35,470 bases of DNA from Bradymonadales bacterium (GTDB taxonomy: Bacteria; Myxococcota_A; UBA9042; PWKZ01). The DNA lies in assembly GCA_003559575.1 (NCBI GenBank), contig PWKZ01000147.1, positions 1-35,470 on the forward strand, in the 5' to 3' direction. The position numbers and the translations under genes were made by a program. Positions 2,218 through 12,804 of the stretch are shown here, in pieces. The notes beneath the pieces were generated by a model. The model was not told the origin of the DNA. It saw only the letters and a program-made list of their open reading frames with translations, and did no database searches. Every line of letters starts with the position of its first letter. Position 1 is the stretch's first letter.

Positions 2218-2949
2218 GTGACCGAGAGATTGCGTCAGACCTCACTCATGTTCTCCGGGGGTGTCGACTCCACCACCGCCGCCCTGATGCTCGCCGAACA
2301 GTTTGATCGCGTCCACCTGCTCACGTGGGGCAACGGTCATGGCCACTATCGCCTGGGCCGCACACGGCGGCGGGTCGCCGAGCTGCGACGCCACAGCGGC
2401 GACCGGTTCGTCCACACCCTCGAGTCCATCAGCGATCTCTTCGCGGACTTGATGCCCGCCCCCGAGGAAGAGTTCGACCGGTATCGCTCCGGGTTCATCT
2501 GGTGTTTGGGCTGCAAGATCGCGATGCACACCCGCAGCGTACTGTACAACCTCGAGCACGACATCAAGGAGATCGCCGACGGCTCGTCGCGCTCCACCGG
2601 CGAGATGGTCGAGCAGATGTTGCTCAGCACATTCATGATTCGCGATTTCTACTCGCGCTATGGGATAAGGTATCGTACCCCGGTCTACACCATGTCGCGG
2701 GAGAAGGAGATAGCGCTCCTCAAGGCCAAGGGGTTTCGGCTGGGGTTCAGGGTAGGCAGCCGCTTTTTGGGCATCCAACCCAAGTGCCGCCCGGGCGAGT
2801 TGTATTACCTGCCGTTTCTGCTGCTGAATCAGCCGCCCAAGCACGATGACGAACAGATCGCGAACTTTATCGAGGAGAAGACCGCGCGCGCCCACGTGCT
2901 CATTGAGGAGTGGTGTCGCGCGCGCGGCGTGTCGGCGCAGGAGTGCTGA
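2218..2949 (+). CDS. PP-loop ATPase, possible Fe-S-dependent sulfur transferase
   Basis: An N-terminal SGGVDS (residues 13-18) is the pyrophosphate-binding loop of N-type ATP pyrophosphatases, which adenylate a substrate before adding sulfur or nitrogen. A WCLGCK motif gives C96 and C99, and QPKC gives C190. CxxC plus one distant Cys is the arrangement that holds the [4Fe-4S] cluster in TtcA-type thiolases; the Cys pair is also followed by a helix ending in LY, as in TtcA. At 243 aa it lacks an obvious RNA-binding domain, so a small-molecule or lipid substrate is possible. GTG 2218 precedes the P-loop by 12 residues. It is the first gene of a six-gene operon that includes a cysteine desulfurase, which supports a sulfur role. 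A QueC-like or other PP-loop activity is the alternative. Confidence 0.75.
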   Translation: MTERLRQTSLMFSGGVDSTTAALMLAEQFDRVHLLTWGNGHGHYRLGRTRRRVAELRRHSGDRFVHTLESISDLFADLMPAPEEEFDRYRSGFIWCLGCKIAMHTRSVLYNLEHDIKEIADGSSRSTGEMVEQMLLSTFMIRDFYSRYGIRYRTPVYTMSREKEIALLKAKGFRLGFRVGSRFLGIQPKCRPGELYYLPFLLLNQPPKHDDEQIANFIEEKTARAHVLIEEWCRARGVSAQEC

Positions 2950-2964
2950 AAGGGACCTCTCGCC

Positions 2965-3225
2965 ATGGGATGCTGCAACAAAGAACTCACCGGCCGGCCC
3001 ATCGGGCGACTCCGCTATCTGGCGGGAGCCGGTGTCATTATCGCCGTCCACGGCGGAGTCTTCGCGCTTTTGAGCGCCGGGGCCTATCTCTCGCCGCGCT
3101 GCCGGCGAGTGTTGCCCTTCTATCGGGCCTATACGCGCGCCACAATCTCAGGCATCCTCAAGCGCGAGCGCATTCTCTTGGCCGGAGAGCGGGCCCCCAA
3201 CCCGGACTGTGAGCTTCCCAAGTGA
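2965..3225 (+). CDS. Small single-pass membrane protein (86 aa)
   Basis: The ORF starts MGCCNKELTG, has one hydrophobic segment (about residues 18-40), then an Arg-rich region and a C-terminal tail. It resembles no family I know. Reality is supported by context: it begins 15 bases after the PP-loop gene, has an AAGGGA stretch about ten bases before its ATG, and its TGA overlaps the next gene's GTG by four bases (GTGA), suggesting translational coupling. The paired cysteines at positions 3 and 4 could bind metal or be acylated; that is speculation. Confidence 0.7.
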   Translation: MGCCNKELTGRPIGRLRYLAGAGVIIAVHGGVFALLSAGAYLSPRCRRVLPFYRAYTRATISGILKRERILLAGERAPNPDCELPK

Positions 3226-4451
3226 CCGATCCGGCGCTCCACCCGGAGCTTTTGCGAATCAGAGCCGATTTCCCGGCGCTCGCCGCCAGGCCACGAGGCA
3301 AGCCGGTGATCTATTTCGACAACGCCTGTACGACACTGCGACCCGAGTCGGTGGCCGCCGCGATAGCCGATCAGGTGCGCACCGGCGCCGCTTGCCACGG
3401 TCGCTCCTACCACCGCCTCGGGCGCGCCGCGACCGACACTCTGGCCCGGGCGCGGCACGCCGTTTTGCGCCTGATCGGGGCCGAGCGGCCGGAGGAGGTC
3501 ATCTTCGTCCGCAGCGCGACGGAGGGGCTCAACATGGTGGCGCGTTCGCTCGGGTTGGGGCCCGGCGACGTGGTTCTGACCACCGACCAGGAGCACAACG
3601 CCAACCTCATCCCCTGGCAGCGGTTGACCCGCAGCCATCGCATTCGCCACGAGATCATGCCGCTTGGCTCCGGCTTCGACATGGCCGAGTTCCGGCGGCG
3701 GCTTCGCCGGGGGGTCCGGCTCGTCAGCGTATTTCACACCTCGAACTTGACCGGGGCGACCCTGCCGGTGGCCGAGATCTGTCACGAGGCGCGTCGTCAC
3801 AAATCGCTCGTCCTCATCGATGGGGCGCAGAGCGTCATGACCCACGAGATTGATCTGGCCTCCATGGGGGCCGACTTCTTTGTTTTCTCGCTGCACAAGA
3901 TGATGGGGCCGACGGGGCTCGGGGTGTTGTGGGGCCGCGCCGCGCTCCTCGAGCGCCTGGAGCCGCTCATCGTGGGGGGCGACACCGTGACGGATGCGAC
4001 CTACGGCGACTGCACCTTCGCGCCGCTGCCCGCGCGGTTGGAGGCCGGTGTGGCCAACCTCGACGCCGCCGCGGGGGTTGAGGCGGCCGTCGATTACCTG
4101 TTGCAGCTCGAGCGGCGACACATTCACAGCCATGTGGTAGCGCTCAACGAGATCGCCACCGAGGGGTTGCGGCGCATCCCTCGTGTCCGCGTGCTCGGCC
4201 CCCCGGCGCCGGCCGAGCGCGGCGCGATCGTCAACTTCACGATGGACGGTGTCGGCAGCCACAGCCTGGCGCGTCTCCTGGACGAGCGCGCCGGCGTGAT
4301 GGTTCGGCACGGCAAACACTGTGGGCACGCGTGGTACAATGCTCTCGGGGTGGAGGAGTCGGTGCGGGCCTCCTTCGCGGTTTACAACACCGAAGCCGAG
4401 GTGGAGGTCTTGCTGGAGACCGTCGCCAAGGTCGACGGCATGTTGGAGTAA
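3222..4451 (+). CDS. Class V aminotransferase, SufS/CsdA-type cysteine desulfurase
   Basis: The protein has the fold-type I PLP layout of group II cysteine desulfurases: YFDNACTT near residue 31, His125 in DQEHNAN stacking on PLP, Asp200 in LVLIDGAQ, and the Schiff-base lysine K226 in FSLHKMMGPTG. The RHGKHCGHAW motif supplies C367, at the position of the persulfide cysteine of SufS. Length (409 aa) is typical. It would turn cysteine into alanine and a protein-bound persulfide. No sufBCD genes are nearby, so it is probably dedicated to its operon, handing sulfur to the PP-loop protein two genes upstream. GTG 3222 overlaps the previous stop by four bases. Some family members act on other substrates (for example selenocysteine or isopenicillin N epimerase-like), so the exact reaction is inferred. 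Confidence 0.88.
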   Translation: MTDPALHPELLRIRADFPALAARPRGKPVIYFDNACTTLRPESVAAAIADQVRTGAACHGRSYHRLGRAATDTLARARHAVLRLIGAERPEEVIFVRSATEGLNMVARSLGLGPGDVVLTTDQEHNANLIPWQRLTRSHRIRHEIMPLGSGFDMAEFRRRLRRGVRLVSVFHTSNLTGATLPVAEICHEARRHKSLVLIDGAQSVMTHEIDLASMGADFFVFSLHKMMGPTGLGVLWGRAALLERLEPLIVGGDTVTDATYGDCTFAPLPARLEAGVANLDAAAGVEAAVDYLLQLERRHIHSHVVALNEIATEGLRRIPRVRVLGPPAPAERGAIVNFTMDGVGSHSLARLLDERAGVMVRHGKHCGHAWYNALGVEESVRASFAVYNTEAEVEVLLETVAKVDGMLE

Positions 4452-4454
4452 CGT

Positions 4455-5897
4455 TTGCGGCTCGTGCTCGTCAATCCGAGCTTTCAGACCCGGGTGCGGC
4501 GTATCGCCCAGACCAGCGTCGGGCCACCGCTCGGGTTGGCCTATCTGGCCGCCGCGGTGCGCGCCAAAGGCTTCGAGGTGCGCGTCGTCGACGCCAACGT
4601 CTTTGGTCTGAGCGAAGCGCGCGCGGCCGCCGCGGCGTTTGACTTGCAACCTGACGTGGTCGGCATCACGGCGGCGACCCCGACCATCGCCCGCGCGGGC
4701 GAGATAGCCGGCCACCTGAAAGCTCTCGACCCCGGTATCACCACGATCGTCGGCGGACCCCACGCCACCGCCTTGCCCGCGCGCACGCTGGCCGAGTTTC
4801 CCGCCGTCGACATCGTCGCGCGGGGGGAGGCCGAGGGCTCCCTGCCCGCGCTCCTCGCGGCCCTCGACCGGGGCGCTTCGCGGCGGGCGCTCACCGACGT
4901 GCCGGGGTTCGTTCTTCGCGAAGAAGGCGGGAGCGTCGTGGACACCGGGGCCGCGGCGCGGCTCGACTGTCTCGACCGCCTCCCCTTGCCGGCCCGCGAT
5001 CTGTTGCCGATGCGGCGCTATCGGACCGTCGATTCGGACCGCTTCACCACAATGCTGGCGATGCGCGGCTGCCCTTGTAGTTGCGTCTACTGTTACGTCC
5101 CCGAGCTGTTCGGCCGCCGGATGCGGTATCGCTCTCCGGCGGCGGTGGTGGCCGAGATGGACGAGGTCCACGCGCGTCATGGGGTCACGCTGGTCTCGTT
5201 CGTCGACGACACCTTCACGACTCGCCGCGAGTGGGTCGAGGAGTTCAGCGATCATGCGCAAACCTCGGGAGTGGCGCGCCGGGTTCGCTGGACCTGCCTG
5301 ACGCGGGCCGACATGGTGGATCGCGCGCTCCTCGCGGCCATGCGCCGCGCGGGCTGCTTGCGCATCGAGTTCGGGATCGAGAGCGCCTCCGCCGCCGGCG
5401 TCGCGTTTCTCGACAAGGGGCAGAGCGAGGAGAAGGTGTTGGCCGCGTTTCGTGATGCCCGCGCGGTGGGACTCTCGACAATGGGGTTCCTGATCCTGAA
5501 CATCCCGGGTGAGACCGAGGCCGACATCGTGAGTTCGTTCGAGCTCGCCCGCCGTGCCGATCCCGACTTCCTCCAGGTCTCCTTTCTGACCCCCTACCCC
5601 GGCACGGCGTTGCGCGCCGAGGCGGAGCGGCGCGGCTGGATCACCACCGACGACTGGTCGCGTTATCTGTTCTTGCGCGACATCGTCCTCGATCACGGCG
5701 GGCTGCCGCCGGCGAAGCTCGAGCGAATCTATTCGCAGCAGATGCGCCGCTTCTATCTGCGACCGCGGACGGCAATCAAATTTGGTCGTTTGGTATTGGG
5801 TGGGCGCAGCGAGCTGCGCCCGCTCATGCGCACCGTCATGTTGGGGCTGGCGGGGCTCTTGGCGGGGCAGAGCGAGGGCGATAGGAGGGAGCCATGA
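4455..5897 (+). CDS. B12-binding-domain radical SAM enzyme
   Basis: The N-terminal 130 residues are a cobalamin-binding Rossmann domain of the kind fused to class B radical SAM enzymes (PPLGLAYLAAAVRAKG, then DVVGITA, VGGPHATALP and ARGEAEGSLP). The radical SAM core follows with C206, C210 and C213 in CPCSCVYC (CxxxCxxC), which would bind [4Fe-4S] and SAM. FVDDTF and EFGIESAS are typical later strands. Family members methylate unreactive carbons or rearrange carbon skeletons. TTG 4455 is the only start before the first conserved strand, and it follows the desulfurase stop by three bases. The operon position argues for a tailoring step in the same pathway. The substrate cannot be told from the sequence. 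Confidence 0.88.
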   Translation: MRLVLVNPSFQTRVRRIAQTSVGPPLGLAYLAAAVRAKGFEVRVVDANVFGLSEARAAAAAFDLQPDVVGITAATPTIARAGEIAGHLKALDPGITTIVGGPHATALPARTLAEFPAVDIVARGEAEGSLPALLAALDRGASRRALTDVPGFVLREEGGSVVDTGAAARLDCLDRLPLPARDLLPMRRYRTVDSDRFTTMLAMRGCPCSCVYCYVPELFGRRMRYRSPAAVVAEMDEVHARHGVTLVSFVDDTFTTRREWVEEFSDHAQTSGVARRVRWTCLTRADMVDRALLAAMRRAGCLRIEFGIESASAAGVAFLDKGQSEEKVLAAFRDARAVGLSTMGFLILNIPGETEADIVSSFELARRADPDFLQVSFLTPYPGTALRAEAERRGWITTDDWSRYLFLRDIVLDHGGLPPAKLERIYSQQMRRFYLRPRTAIKFGRLVLGGRSELRPLMRTVMLGLAGLLAGQSEGDRREP

Positions 5898-6202
5898 TTT
5901 CGTTGTGGCAGCCTCTCTTGCAGGTCGTCGCCTTGCTCTACGGGTTCGTGTTACCCGGTGTGCTCATCGCGTGGCACGTCGCGGCCGATTGGAGCCGCCC
6001 CGTGCGGCTGGCGGTCGGTGTCTTCGTCGGCCTCCTGGTTACCCCGATGCTCTCCTTCGTGCTGGCCTGGTGGTTGGCGACCAGCATCACCCCGCTCGTC
6101 GTGATCGGGGCGGCGACACTGGTGAACGCCGCCGCCGGAGGCGCGCTCTTTTATCGCAAACGCAACGGCCGCGCGACTGTGGCCTCGAGCCCGACCGTAT
6201 GA
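5894..6202 (+). CDS. Small polytopic membrane protein (102 aa)
   Basis: Three hydrophobic segments are visible (about residues 5-27, 35-58 and 64-85), followed by a short basic tail (RKRNGR). No family is recognised. Its ATG overlaps the radical SAM stop (ATGA) and its own TGA overlaps the carbamoyltransferase ATG in the same way, so it is almost certainly translated with both. A GGAGG stretch lies just before the start. With the other small membrane protein at 2965, it suggests the pathway works at the membrane or on a lipid-linked substrate. Confidence 0.75.
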   Translation: MISLWQPLLQVVALLYGFVLPGVLIAWHVAADWSRPVRLAVGVFVGLLVTPMLSFVLAWWLATSITPLVVIGAATLVNAAAGGALFYRKRNGRATVASSPTV

Positions 6203-7923
6203 CGATTGATCCCACAAAAGGGCCGCTGGTCCTCGGCATCCATGAGGACACCAACGCCAACGCGGCGCTGCTCTGCGGGGGCACCATCGAGGCGGCGGTG
6301 GCCGAAGAGCGGCTGACCCGGACAAAGTTTCAAGGCGGTTTCCCGGCCCGCGCGGTGGCCGAGGTACTGCGCCTGGGCGGAGTCTCGGCGGCCGAACTCG
6401 ACGCGGTGGTGGCCGCCAACCGCTACCACTTCCTGCCAAGGCTGGCGGGGCGCGCGCCCATCGAGGGTGAGCACGATCTGTTTGGGCCGCTGCACCGCGG
6501 GTGGCTCGCGCTCCAAGACCACCTCGGCGGTGGAGGAGTGGCCGCGCGGTGCATGGAGCACCTGAACGAGCGCTTGCTGGCGCGGCGTTTCGCGCGCCCG
6601 GTGGATCTCATCGATCATCACACGGCGCACGCCTACTCGGCCTACCTGACCTCCGGCTTTCCGGAGGCGCTGGCGGTCTCGGTGGACAACCTGGGAGACG
6701 GGTTTGCCGCCAAGACGTTTGCCTGCCGAGGAGGCCGCTGTGAGCTGCTGTGGGGATCGCGCGCGCAGAACTCCCCCGGCCAGTTCTACGGTGAGATCTC
6801 CCAATTACTGGGGTTTCACGTGCTCATGGCCGGCAAGGTGACCGGACTGGCGGCGCGCGGCGATGCGCGCAAGCTCTACCCTCTCATGGAGCGTCTCTTC
6901 GCCCTCGAACGCGACGAGACCGATTTCCGGCTCTTGCCGGGCCTCCAACGTCGGCGCTCGGCGCCGCTGTTTGCCGAGCTCGCGGCCGCGTCCCGGGAGG
7001 ACGTCTCGGCCGCGGCGCAACAGCGCCTGGAGGATGTCCTGGTGGCTTATGTTCGGCGGGGGCTGAAAGAGACCAAGCTCTCGCACGTGGTGTTGGCCGG
7101 CGGCGTCTTTGCCAACGTGTTGGTCAATCATCGCCTCTGGAGCCTGCCGGAGGTCGAGGGGTTGTTCGTCCACCCCGCCATGAGCGATCAGGGGATGGCG
7201 GTGGGGGCCGCGTTGACACACTTGAGCGCATGTATGCCGCTCGCGCCACGGGCCATCGCCGACGTCTACCTGGGCCCCGGTTACGACGAGGAGGAGATCG
7301 GCCGGGCGGTGGAGGAGGCGGGAGCTCGCGCCACCCTCTGTCGCGACATCGACCTGCGGGTGGCCGAGTTGATAGCCGAGGGGAAGGTGGTGGCGCGCTT
7401 CACCGGGAGAATGGAGTACGGCCCGCGCGCGCTCGGGCACCGCAGCATTCTCTATCACACGGGCGATCCGAGCGTAAATGACTGGCTCAACCGGCGCTTA
7501 CGGCGCTCGGAGTTCATGCCGTTCGCGCCGGCGGTCCTGGCCGAGTACGCGCCGCGATGCTTCACCGACTACGGCCCGGGGGTGGCCCACACCGCGCGCT
7601 TCATGACCATTACGCTGCGGTGTGCCGAGGCGATGCGACGTTTGTCACCGGCGGTGGTGCATTTGGATGGAACCGCGCGGCCTCAGGTGGTGCACGAAGA
7701 GTTTACTCCGGGGTTCCATCGCATTCTGAGGCTCGTCCACGAGCGAACCGGAGTGCCGAGTATAATCAACACCTCGTTCAACATGCACGGGGAGCCGATA
7801 GTCTGCACGCCGAACGACGCCCTGCGCTCCTTTGCCGCCGGGCGGCTCGACGCGCTGGCGCTGGGGCCTTTTCTCGTCACCGGCGCGCGAGCCAATTCTC
7901 GAGGTCGACCGAGCTGCCGATGA
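6199..7923 (+). CDS. Carbamoyltransferase, NodU/CmcH/TobZ family
   Basis: This enzyme class transfers the carbamoyl group of carbamoyl phosphate, through carbamoyl-adenylate, to a hydroxyl of a sugar or natural product. The Kae1-like N-terminal domain shows [23 protein letters not shown], the metal-site histidines H140, H141 and H144 in [12 protein letters not shown], and later [12 protein letters not shown]. The C-terminal domain shows [29 protein letters not shown] and [13 protein letters not shown]. Length (574 aa) fits the family. ATG 6199 is fixed by its ATGA overlap with the upstream gene and by homology starting at residue 11; the open frame extends 139 codons further upstream without meaning. 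Its last 47 bases overlap the convergent peroxiredoxin gene. It ends the operon, so carbamoylation may be a late step. Confidence 0.9.
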
Positions 7924-8614
7924 GTTTCCCGTCGACGAAGACCTGCGGCACGGTGTCGGCGCCGCTAGTGGCGCGCAGGCCGCGCAAACTGGTCTCCTCG
8001 CCCACCACGATCTCTTCGAACTCCAACCCGGCGTCGGCCAGCTTCTCCTTCGCAGCTTTGCAAAACGGGCAGCCCGGCTTGGTGAACAGAAGCACATCCA
8101 ACGGCCGCCGCGCCTTGGGGGCGATGTACCCGAGCATGGTGTCGGCATCCGAGACTTCGAACGGATCGCCCGGTTTGTCCGGCTCGATGAACTGTTTCTC
8201 GATGACTCCGTCACGGACCAGCATCGAGTAACGCCACGAGCGCTTCCCAAACCCCACGACGCTCTTATCCACCAGCATCCCCATCCCTTCAGTGAACTCG
8301 CCGTTGCCGTCGGCCAGGAAGGTGAGTTGATCGGCCCCTTGCGAGGCCTGCCAGGCCTCCATGACGAAACCGTCGTTGACCGAGACACAGACGATCTCGT
8401 CGATCCCGTGCTCCTTGAACACGGGCGCCAGCTCGTTGTAGCGCGGCACGTGAGCCGACGAGCAGGTGGGGGTAAACGCCCCCGGCAGCGAAAACACCAC
8501 CACGTTGCGCCCCTTGAAGACATCGTCCGTGCGGATGACGTTCCAGTTGTTGTTAGCCCGGCAGTGGAATGTGACCTCCGGTACTCTTTGTCCCTCACGC
8601 GATTCCAGGCTCAT
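7877..8614 (-). CDS. Peroxiredoxin-glutaredoxin fusion (hybrid Prx5)
   Basis: Residues 1-165 form a Prx5-type peroxiredoxin with the peroxidatic Cys51 in [15 protein letters not shown] glutaredoxin domain follows from about residue 172, with C182 and C185 in [10 protein letters not shown] and the cis-proline in TVPQVF. Such fusions reduce peroxides with glutathione through the attached glutaredoxin. Length (245 aa) matches the known hybrid proteins. ATG 8614 is preferred over an upstream in-frame start at 8665 because GAGAGGAG lies just before it and homology begins at once. The stop lies inside the end of the convergent carbamoyltransferase gene. A 12-bp hairpin sits about 40 bases upstream of the start. 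Confidence 0.93.
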
Positions 8615-8653
8615 CGTTGACTCCTCTCCCGGTTGTGGACTTCTTGAACGGCG

Positions 8654-8689
8654 GGCTGCGACCACTCCGCGGGTGGTCGCAGCCGTTTT
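8654..8689 (+). terminator. Strong hairpin followed by GTTTT between prx and dacB
   Basis: GGCTGCGACCAC (8654-8665) pairs perfectly with GTGGTCGCAGCC (8673-8684) across a 7-base loop, and GTTTT follows on the plus strand. This looks like a plus-strand intrinsic terminator, but the nearest plus-strand gene ends at 7923, with the whole peroxiredoxin gene antisense in between. On the minus strand there is no T run, and the hairpin would lie in the peroxiredoxin leader. A leader element is the alternative. Confidence 0.45.
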
Positions 8690-10862: not shown

Positions 10863-11618
10863 ATGCATGATCTCGTCGACGTACACTGCCACCTGACTCA
10901 CGAGGCTTTTGCACGCGATTTGCCGGCCGTTCTCGGTCGCGCGCGCGAGGCCGGAGTGACACGCCTCATTTGCATGGGGGAGACTCCCGCCGACAACCTC
11001 GAAGTGCTGGCGCTTAGCCGCGCCCACCCCGAGCTCCTGGCGGGGTTCGGACACTATCCGGCCCATCTGGACGAGTCGATGGTCGAGGAGACCTTGGCGC
11101 TGCTGAGGGCGCACGTGCACGAGGTGGTGGCGCTCGGCGAGGTGGGCATCGATCACCGTCTCGCCGCGGATCCCGAAGAGCGGGGCCGACAACACGAAAT
11201 TTTCAAGCGCTTGATCGAGGTGTCGCTGGAGCTCGATTTGCCGCTCTCGGTTCACTCACGCTCTGCCGGTCATCACGCCCTCAGGTTGCTCAAAGACAAT
11301 GGCGCACGGCGGGTCTGCCTGCACGCTTTCGACGGCAAGGCGGGCTACGCCGCCGAGGCGGCGGAGGCCGGGTACTACCTCTCGATCCCCCCCAGTGTGG
11401 TGCGCTCGCCGCAAAAACAGAAGCTGATCCGCCGGGTGCCGCTCGAGAGGCTTTTGCTCGAGAGCGACGCGCCGGTGCTCGGCCCGGACGCCGGCCAGCG
11501 CAACGAGCCGGCCAACCTTTCGCTGGTGGCCGAGGCGATCGCCGAGATCAAAAATCTCTCGCGAGACGAGGTGTGTCAGACAATCCGGGCCAACACCCGC
11601 GCGCTGTTCGGGGTTTGA
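10863..11618 (+). CDS. TatD-family metal-dependent DNase
   Basis: The protein has the amidohydrolase-fold metal ligands of the TatD family: H8 and H10 in DVHCH, E93 in LGEVGID, H131 in SVHSR, H154 in LHAFDG and D202 in ESDAPVL. At 251 aa it has the normal length. Members are 3'-5' exonucleases or deoxyribonucleases linked to DNA repair and degradation. ATG 10863 starts the first strand directly. Its leader (CCTTTTTAAAAAGAC) is AT-rich and carries no clear Shine-Dalgarno. The next gene, a radical SAM protein, starts one base after the stop. TatD-associated radical SAM proteins are known in other bacteria, so the pairing may be functional. Confidence 0.92.
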   Translation: MHDLVDVHCHLTHEAFARDLPAVLGRAREAGVTRLICMGETPADNLEVLALSRAHPELLAGFGHYPAHLDESMVEETLALLRAHVHEVVALGEVGIDHRLAADPEERGRQHEIFKRLIEVSLELDLPLSVHSRSAGHHALRLLKDNGARRVCLHAFDGKAGYAAEAAEAGYYLSIPPSVVRSPQKQKLIRRVPLERLLLESDAPVLGPDAGQRNEPANLSLVAEAIAEIKNLSRDEVCQTIRANTRALFGV

Positions 11619-11619
11619 G

Positions 11620-12804
11620 ATGCGCGCGCGGGAGGCTCGCCTCATTATCAAAGATCATTTTCGGGCCCTGTCGGCGTTGGGCGCTCCGCCGTGCCCGGGC
11701 TCGCGCGATGTGCTGGTGAGAAGCCAGGATGTGCTGCTGCGGACGGGGTTCGACGGGCGGCCGCTGCGGGCCGTACCGCGCCGGGGCCGCCCGATTCCGC
11801 GCGAGGGGTTCGGCAGCGAGCACTTTCTGTTCTTACCGCTCCGCGCCGGGGATCCCGCGAGTGCGCCCGGAGCGCGCCCGATCTCGCCGCCCTGGGATCA
11901 GGCGGCGCCCCAGGCGGCGCCCAGGCTGGAACCCCGCGCGCTCGAGGCAGCGTTCGACACCACTCCGCCGGCGGTCCTCCGCACCCCCGGAGATTGCGGC
12001 CAGGCTTGTCTCTTTTGTCGCGACCCAGCCTCCGGCGGCAGGCGTTCTCGAGGGGAGCGGGACAGTCCACACCGGCGCCTCGCGACACTCGCGCCCGGCC
12101 GGCGGCTGCTCATCGAAGGTGAGGATCCGCTCGGATGGGAGGGGATTGTCGGCCTGGTGCGGGCCGCATGCGCGCGCGGCTTCGAGGACATCGCGATCCT
12201 GACGCCCGGCGCGCGTCTCGGCGACTCATCGAAGGCGGTCGAGCTTGCGGACGCCGGGCTCGACCGTGTCGAGATCCCGCTCTACGGCGCCACGGCCGCG
12301 CGCCACGACGCCGTGACGCGCACGCCGGGCAGTTTCGCGAGGCTCCAGCGTGGGCTCGGACAGCTCGAGCGCGCCGGTGTGTTGGTGGTGGTCCACACGG
12401 CGCTGGTGTTGCCGGTGTTGGACGATCTGGCCGCCATCGCGGACCTGGCCGCCGACTCGGGGTTTAGTCTCGAGCGCCTCGAGGGGCTGGTGGCCGACCC
12501 CGGCCAAGAGGATCGCTATGCGCGTTGGGCGCCCGATGTGGCGCGGATCCGCGCCACGCTCGCCCACGCCGCCGCGCGCCTCCCCGCGCCGCTGGAGATG
12601 GTCGATTTGCCCGCCTGCGCCACCGGGTTGAAGTGGTTGAATCTGCGCTGGACACTGCGGCCCGGCCCGTGGCCCTACCGCCACCTGCCGGCCTGTGAAG
12701 GCTGCGGAGCGCGCCCCGCCTGCCCGGGAGCAAGCGTCGCCTACCTGCGCACTCACGGCAGCGGCGCGCTCGAACGGGTGAGTTCCGCCGGGACAAGCAG
12801 ATGA
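11620..12804 (+). CDS. Divergent radical SAM protein with N-terminal extension
   Basis: C126, C130 and C133 in CGQACLFC form a CxxxCxxC cluster site. The next motif is GEDPL instead of the usual GGEPL, and VEIPLYGATAARHDAVT followed by TPGSF matches the later radical SAM strands. A C-terminal group, CEGCGARPAC (about residues 364-373), could hold an auxiliary cluster. The 115 residues before the cluster are Arg/Pro-rich and match nothing I know. The gene follows tatD by one base and faces maf across four bases. The radical SAM call is sound; the reaction is unknown. Very high GC makes overlapping open frames common here, but this frame alone carries the motifs. Confidence 0.8.
   Translation: MRAREARLIIKDHFRALSALGAPPCPGSRDVLVRSQDVLLRTGFDGRPLRAVPRRGRPIPREGFGSEHFLFLPLRAGDPASAPGARPISPPWDQAAPQAAPRLEPRALEAAFDTTPPAVLRTPGDCGQACLFCRDPASGGRRSRGERDSPHRRLATLAPGRRLLIEGEDPLGWEGIVGLVRAACARGFEDIAILTPGARLGDSSKAVELADAGLDRVEIPLYGATAARHDAVTRTPGSFARLQRGLGQLERAGVLVVVHTALVLPVLDDLAAIADLAADSGFSLERLEGLVADPGQEDRYARWAPDVARIRATLAHAAARLPAPLEMVDLPACATGLKWLNLRWTLRPGPWPYRHLPACEGCGARPACPGASVAYLRTHGSGALERVSSAGTSR

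Follow-up and report, generated by a model that had tools for sequence, protein, structure and literature searches.

PP-loop ATPases that insert sulfur are known for RNA, for a few cofactors and for 6-thioguanine. In the staphylococcal 6-thioguanine (tgs) operon the SufS-like desulfurase TgsA is encoded together with the PP-loop sulfur transferase TgsB (PMC7994395), and in T. maritima LarE a CxxC-C triad binds a [4Fe-4S] cluster and relays sulfur obtained from a desulfurase (PMC9283937). Here we describe a six-gene operon in which probable sulfur insertion of the YcfA/LarE type with an apparently dedicated desulfurase, itself a known chemistry, is found in a setting for which a partial literature search found no description. 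The operon lies at positions 2218-7923 of a 35,470-nucleotide stretch of DNA (the window) from an uncultured Myxococcota bacterium, and direct reading of the open reading frames identified the following genes.

2218..2949, + strand: P0001, PP-loop ATPase, YcfA/TgsB-like; GTG start; SGGVDS at residues 13-18; Cys triad C96-x-x-C99...C190
2965..3225, + strand: P0002, small single-TM protein; N-terminal MGCC, one C-terminal Cys
3222..4451, + strand: P0003, SufS-like (group II) cysteine desulfurase; GTG start; K226 in FSLHK; C367 in GKHC
4455..5897, + strand: P0004, B12-binding radical SAM protein; TTG start; CxxxCxxC at residue 206
5894..6202, + strand: P0005, small membrane protein with 2-3 TM segments; relatives precede carbamoyltransferases
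6199..7923, + strand: P0006, TobZ/NodU-type O-carbamoyltransferase; Carbam_trans_C and Carbam_trans_N domains; HHTAH at 140

Three junctions are four-base overlaps of the ATGA/GTGA type (P0002/P0003 at 3222-3225, P0004/P0005 at 5894-5897 and P0005/P0006 at 6199-6202), whereas P0001 and P0002 lie 15 bases apart and P0003 and P0004 lie 3 bases apart. Direct reading of the DNA confirmed the layout proposed in the initial annotation, with a PP-loop protein, a SufS-like enzyme with persulfide C367, a B12 radical SAM enzyme, a carbamoyltransferase and two small membrane proteins. For P0006 the mechanical open reading frame begins at 5782; the credible start is the ATG at 6199, which overlaps P0005. 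The six-gene block is free-standing, with a divergent gene upstream and a convergent gene downstream. The former (123-2015, - strand) encodes a 630-aa predicted protein with a lipoprotein-like N-terminus and no Pfam match, and the latter (7877-8665, - strand) a peroxiredoxin-glutaredoxin fusion whose 3' end overlaps the P0006 gene by 47 bases. The operon is real and unusual.

By sequence, the sole confident PDB match of P0001 was YcfA (9kq6, E 1.1e-17). An AlphaFold2 model of the protein (pLDDT 93) was used for a PDB fold search, in which ranks 1-20 were all YcfA of Erwinia amylovora (9kq7 and 9kq6 best; E 3e-15 to 2e-13), with E-values some eight orders of magnitude better than that of the next fold, QueC (E 7e-7). 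The search also retrieved the nitrile synthetase ArtA, which like QueC is a PP-loop enzyme without a sulfur reaction, and at rank 47 TtuA, all far weaker than YcfA. TM-scores to the YcfA fold were 0.74-0.78 by query and 0.81-0.87 by target; identity to YcfA and to TgsB of Staphylococcus chromogenes is only 25-30%. No LarE, TtuA or TtcA family model in Pfam or NCBIfam passed, and Pfam gave weak QueC and Asn_synthase matches; identification as QueC or as an asparagine synthetase was rejected because these sequence matches are weak and the fold is clearly that of YcfA.

In S. chromogenes, plasmid homologues of YcfA lie in an operon matching the tgs gene content, where a SufS-like desulfurase gene adjoins the PP-loop gene; the window therefore pairs the same two enzyme classes as TgsA and TgsB. 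The companions of TgsB, in contrast, are NUDIX and HAD proteins and a DMT exporter, all absent from the window, which has a membrane partner and a carbamoyltransferase instead. The operon might make a soluble thio-nucleoside or thio-nucleotide kin to 6-thioguanine, subsequently carbamoylated and radical-modified to give an antimetabolite, as the closest characterised relative, the match of P0003 to TgsA and the structures of YcfA with GTP (9kq9 and 9kqd) would suggest. Given the low identity, the missing tgs companions, the two membrane proteins of the operon and its strong linkage to GT-C and GT2 glycosyltransferase genes (below), we consider such a product unlikely.

P0001 combines the SGGxDS motif with a CxxC...C triad (C96, C99 and C190), and in both respects resembles TtuA and the LarE of T. 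maritima, the latter also being fed by a cysteine desulfurase. A total of three cysteines is conserved in 39 of 40 homologous stretches of P0001, the exception being one distant sequence (L080) that is missing the third. This total is maintained through a positional swap: in nine of the 40 the first cysteine is replaced by phenylalanine, and a new cysteine near the third (CIQPTC) is present in 9/9 of these compared to 0/31 of the others. The nine sequences form a single clade (support 99/96), indicating one event in which the total of three was still kept. Judged from sequence, the triad is consistent with P0001 being a [4Fe-4S] sulfur insertase with three ligating cysteines, like TtuA and LarE. 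Because YcfA and TgsB have no such triad, cluster use would not be inherited from the closest characterised relative, and the swap offers a case, open to testing, in which a likely Fe-S ligand changed position within one fold.

The same motif class occurs in Fe-S tRNA thiolases, and TtuA is among the folds retrieved, so P0001 could conceivably thiolate RNA in the manner of TtcA or TtuA, with neighbours that are unrelated surface-polysaccharide genes. This is very improbable: the tRNA-thiolase models all failed, Pfam detected no RNA-binding domain, the protein has a membrane partner, and the P0001-type gene is patchily distributed (38 of 379 genomes) with conserved biosynthetic neighbours.

P0003 matches SufS over its full length (Pfam Aminotran_5, 1.5e-101), with the PLP lysine (K226) conserved and C367 aligned with the conserved SufS persulfide cysteine. 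Several features distinguish it from a housekeeping SufS. Its score against the SufS model TIGR01979 (388.5 bits) is under the curated cut-off of 475.1, and it has a fixed place after the PP-loop and MGCC genes, in that order in 7/7 members of the window's own clade. The SUFBD_core model, which matched 14/14 control genomes, found neither SufB nor SufD in the host genome, which is 92% complete, so that a SUF locus may have been missed. A NifU gene adjoins a NifS-like gene on another host contig (C140). A housekeeping SUF role was rejected on the missing SufB/D, and together with the NifU and NifS-like genes this makes P0003 look like a dedicated donor. NifU_N scaffold genes lie close to the gene set at three loci (L061, L066 and L074). 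Most other PP-loop genes have no adjacent SufS, and in Omnitrophota a GT-C gene fills its place. At one locus (L047, 8355-10464) a SufS-like gene (46% to P0003) and a divergent PP-loop paralogue are arranged head to head, a pairing that recurs independently. PP-loop genes also occur in tandem (L077, 2931-6395; L138, 9241-10751), with the L077 pair flanking a SufS-like gene.

The desulfurase might instead serve only Fe-S assembly for the radical SAM enzymes, with P0001 acting as an amidating, amidino- or nitrile-forming ligase akin to QueC, ArtA or asparagine synthetase. The folds ranked next after YcfA and the weak Pfam matches are consistent with this reading, but YcfA is far closer, the triad is conserved, the operon contains no glutamine amidotransferase gene, SufS would have no SufBD to build clusters with, and the host carries its NifU and NifS-like genes elsewhere; we regard it as distinctly unlikely. 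Sulfur insertion, by comparison, is well supported by the YcfA fold, the triad, the dedicated SufS without SufBD and the TgsA-TgsB parallel, in line with the sulfur chemistry originally proposed for the operon.

P0002 contains one hydrophobic segment and matched nothing in Pfam, NCBIfam or the PDB. The N-terminal CC is invariant in the alignment of its relatives (A2), and at locus L059 it is down to one Cys. In 24 of 31 loci a relative is encoded immediately downstream of the PP-loop gene, and these loci extend to Omnitrophota and to bins with an archaeon label. The MGCC small membrane protein is undescribed.

The remaining genes encode modifying enzymes and a second membrane protein. P0004 has the B12-binding (1.2e-26) and Radical_SAM (5.1e-24) domains and the CxxxCxxC motif that characterise cobalamin class B radical SAM enzymes, and no NCBIfam equivalog passed (best ApyD and BchE, 195 and 194 bits), which leaves the methylation first suggested as one candidate reaction beside cyclase or dehydratase chemistry. 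The 3.9-Mb host genome contains 26 places with a B12-binding domain. P0006 is clearly of the TobZ/NodU type, as expected from the carbamoylation first suggested: Carbam_trans_C (4.3e-57; 192.8 bits against a cut-off of 27) and Carbam_trans_N (5.7e-26; 92.2 against 24) are both present with the conserved HHxxH region, and the match to TobZ reaches 1.4e-56. Paralogues in the host genome are 35-41% identical. What differs from TobZ and NodU is the pairing with a small membrane protein, since a P0005-like gene directly precedes the carbamoyltransferase in the window and at seven other loci (L056, L059, L060, L061, L063, L066 and L068). At L076 a P0005-like stretch appears fused to, or overlapping, a GT-C protein. 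Matches of P0005 to a bile-acid symporter and to a sortase signal were both under the cut-offs and were rejected.

Carbamoyltransferases are also found beside other PP-loop proteins. In L044, L046 and L048 they lie next to a distant PP-loop subfamily (~30% identity), with a ~115-aa membrane protein without CC between the two genes in L044 and L048. On a host contig (C71; L099, 8758-13102) another carbamoyltransferase gene has in its vicinity a different kind of PP-loop protein, one resembling an N-acetyl sugar amidotransferase.

Among the loci compared, the complete six-gene order was found in the window only, and in this respect conservation of the order did not hold. Parts of it did: PP-loop and MGCC genes, the same pair followed by SufS, and P0005 with the carbamoyltransferase recur as sub-blocks, and locus L060 retains the order for five of the six (37-50% identity where measured; 44% for P0004). 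In that copy a U32-family gene (10963-12294; Peptidase_U32 1.6e-11) occupies the SufS position, flanked by the genes for the MGCC protein and the B12 radical SAM enzyme; known U32 relatives include proteins of oxygen-independent hydroxylation. Relatives of the same class carry Myxococcota or Deltaproteobacteria MAG labels, and the sub-blocks were found repeatedly in Omnitrophota and archaeal bins, with middle genes that vary by lineage. An order confined to the window and lineage-dependent middle genes are what would be expected if the six genes had no common product and were a loose sugar-modifying assortment, co-transcribed by happenstance. The L060 synteny and the repeated sub-blocks make this improbable, and the gene set is not due to chance, since the known enzymes score far over their family cut-offs or show strong conservation and other phyla share portions of the order. 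A defence system was rejected as well: none of the PP-loop, MGCC and carbamoyltransferase proteins matched in PADLOC, and the DndA/SspA matches to SufS were generic.

The genes linked to these loci point to sugars. A carbamoyltransferase lies within 10 kb of the PP-loop gene in 15 of 31 loci, compared to about 4% expected. A polytopic membrane family without a Pfam match (A5) also recurs near PP-loop loci, and its model (pLDDT 79, moderate) folds like ArnT, OST and ALG3, all of the GT-C class. The best PDB match was the undecaprenyl-phosphate sugar transferase ArnT (E 4.6e-4), which shares the fold with the linked protein at 12% identity. Across 53 genomes, with thresholds of E<1e-60 for the PP-loop gene and E<1e-50 for GT-C, each was present in 15 and both in 14. 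GT-C therefore accompanies the PP-loop gene in 14/15 genomes, compared to 1/38 of those lacking it (Fisher 9e-11, kinship ignored), and presence of the two is scattered over six families. A separate host contig (C306; L098, 3737-10711) carries genes for a GT-C protein, an MBL-fold protein, a carbamoyltransferase, a GT2 and a 335-aa protein of family 8 (no Pfam match), and locus L053 joins most genes of this type with PP-loop, MGCC and SufS genes in one cluster. Together, the co-occurrence and these gene groups point to chemistry on a polyprenyl-linked sugar or surface glycan. A glycan context for the operon is moderately supported: where the product was first envisaged as a 'small molecule or lipid', the linked ArnT-like GT-C, GT2 and deacetylase genes point to a lipid-linked or surface glycan.

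Taken together, these results somewhat favour a model in which the six genes provide sulfur insertion and carbamoylation within a pathway decorating a membrane- or lipid-linked sugar. As predicted from the genes, P0003 would draw sulfur from cysteine as a persulfide, and the MGCC protein P0002 would hold P0001 at the membrane. P0001 would then activate a substrate carbonyl or hydroxyl with ATP (adenylation) and swap the oxygen for sulfur borne on a three-Cys [4Fe-4S] cluster, in the way TtuA and the LarE of T. maritima do. Radical modification by P0004 would be accompanied by carbamoylation of a hydroxyl by P0006 together with its membrane partner P0005, and a polyprenyl-linked sugar would be handled by the GT2 and ArnT-like GT-C proteins encoded elsewhere in the host genome. 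The suggestion that no described pathway has this gene set has stood, as none was found within partial literature coverage.

More tentatively, Myxococcota, Omnitrophota and archaeal bins may share an undescribed pathway in which a membrane-tethered Fe-S PP-loop enzyme sulfurates a polyprenyl-linked sugar or membrane lipid, with the MGCC protein as a new sulfur carrier or cluster ligand and a new carbamoylated thio-glycan as product. If true, this cross-phylum unit of PP-loop enzyme, membrane protein, carbamoyltransferase and polyprenyl-sugar transferase would extend sulfur chemistry to the glycans or lipids of bacteria and archaea.
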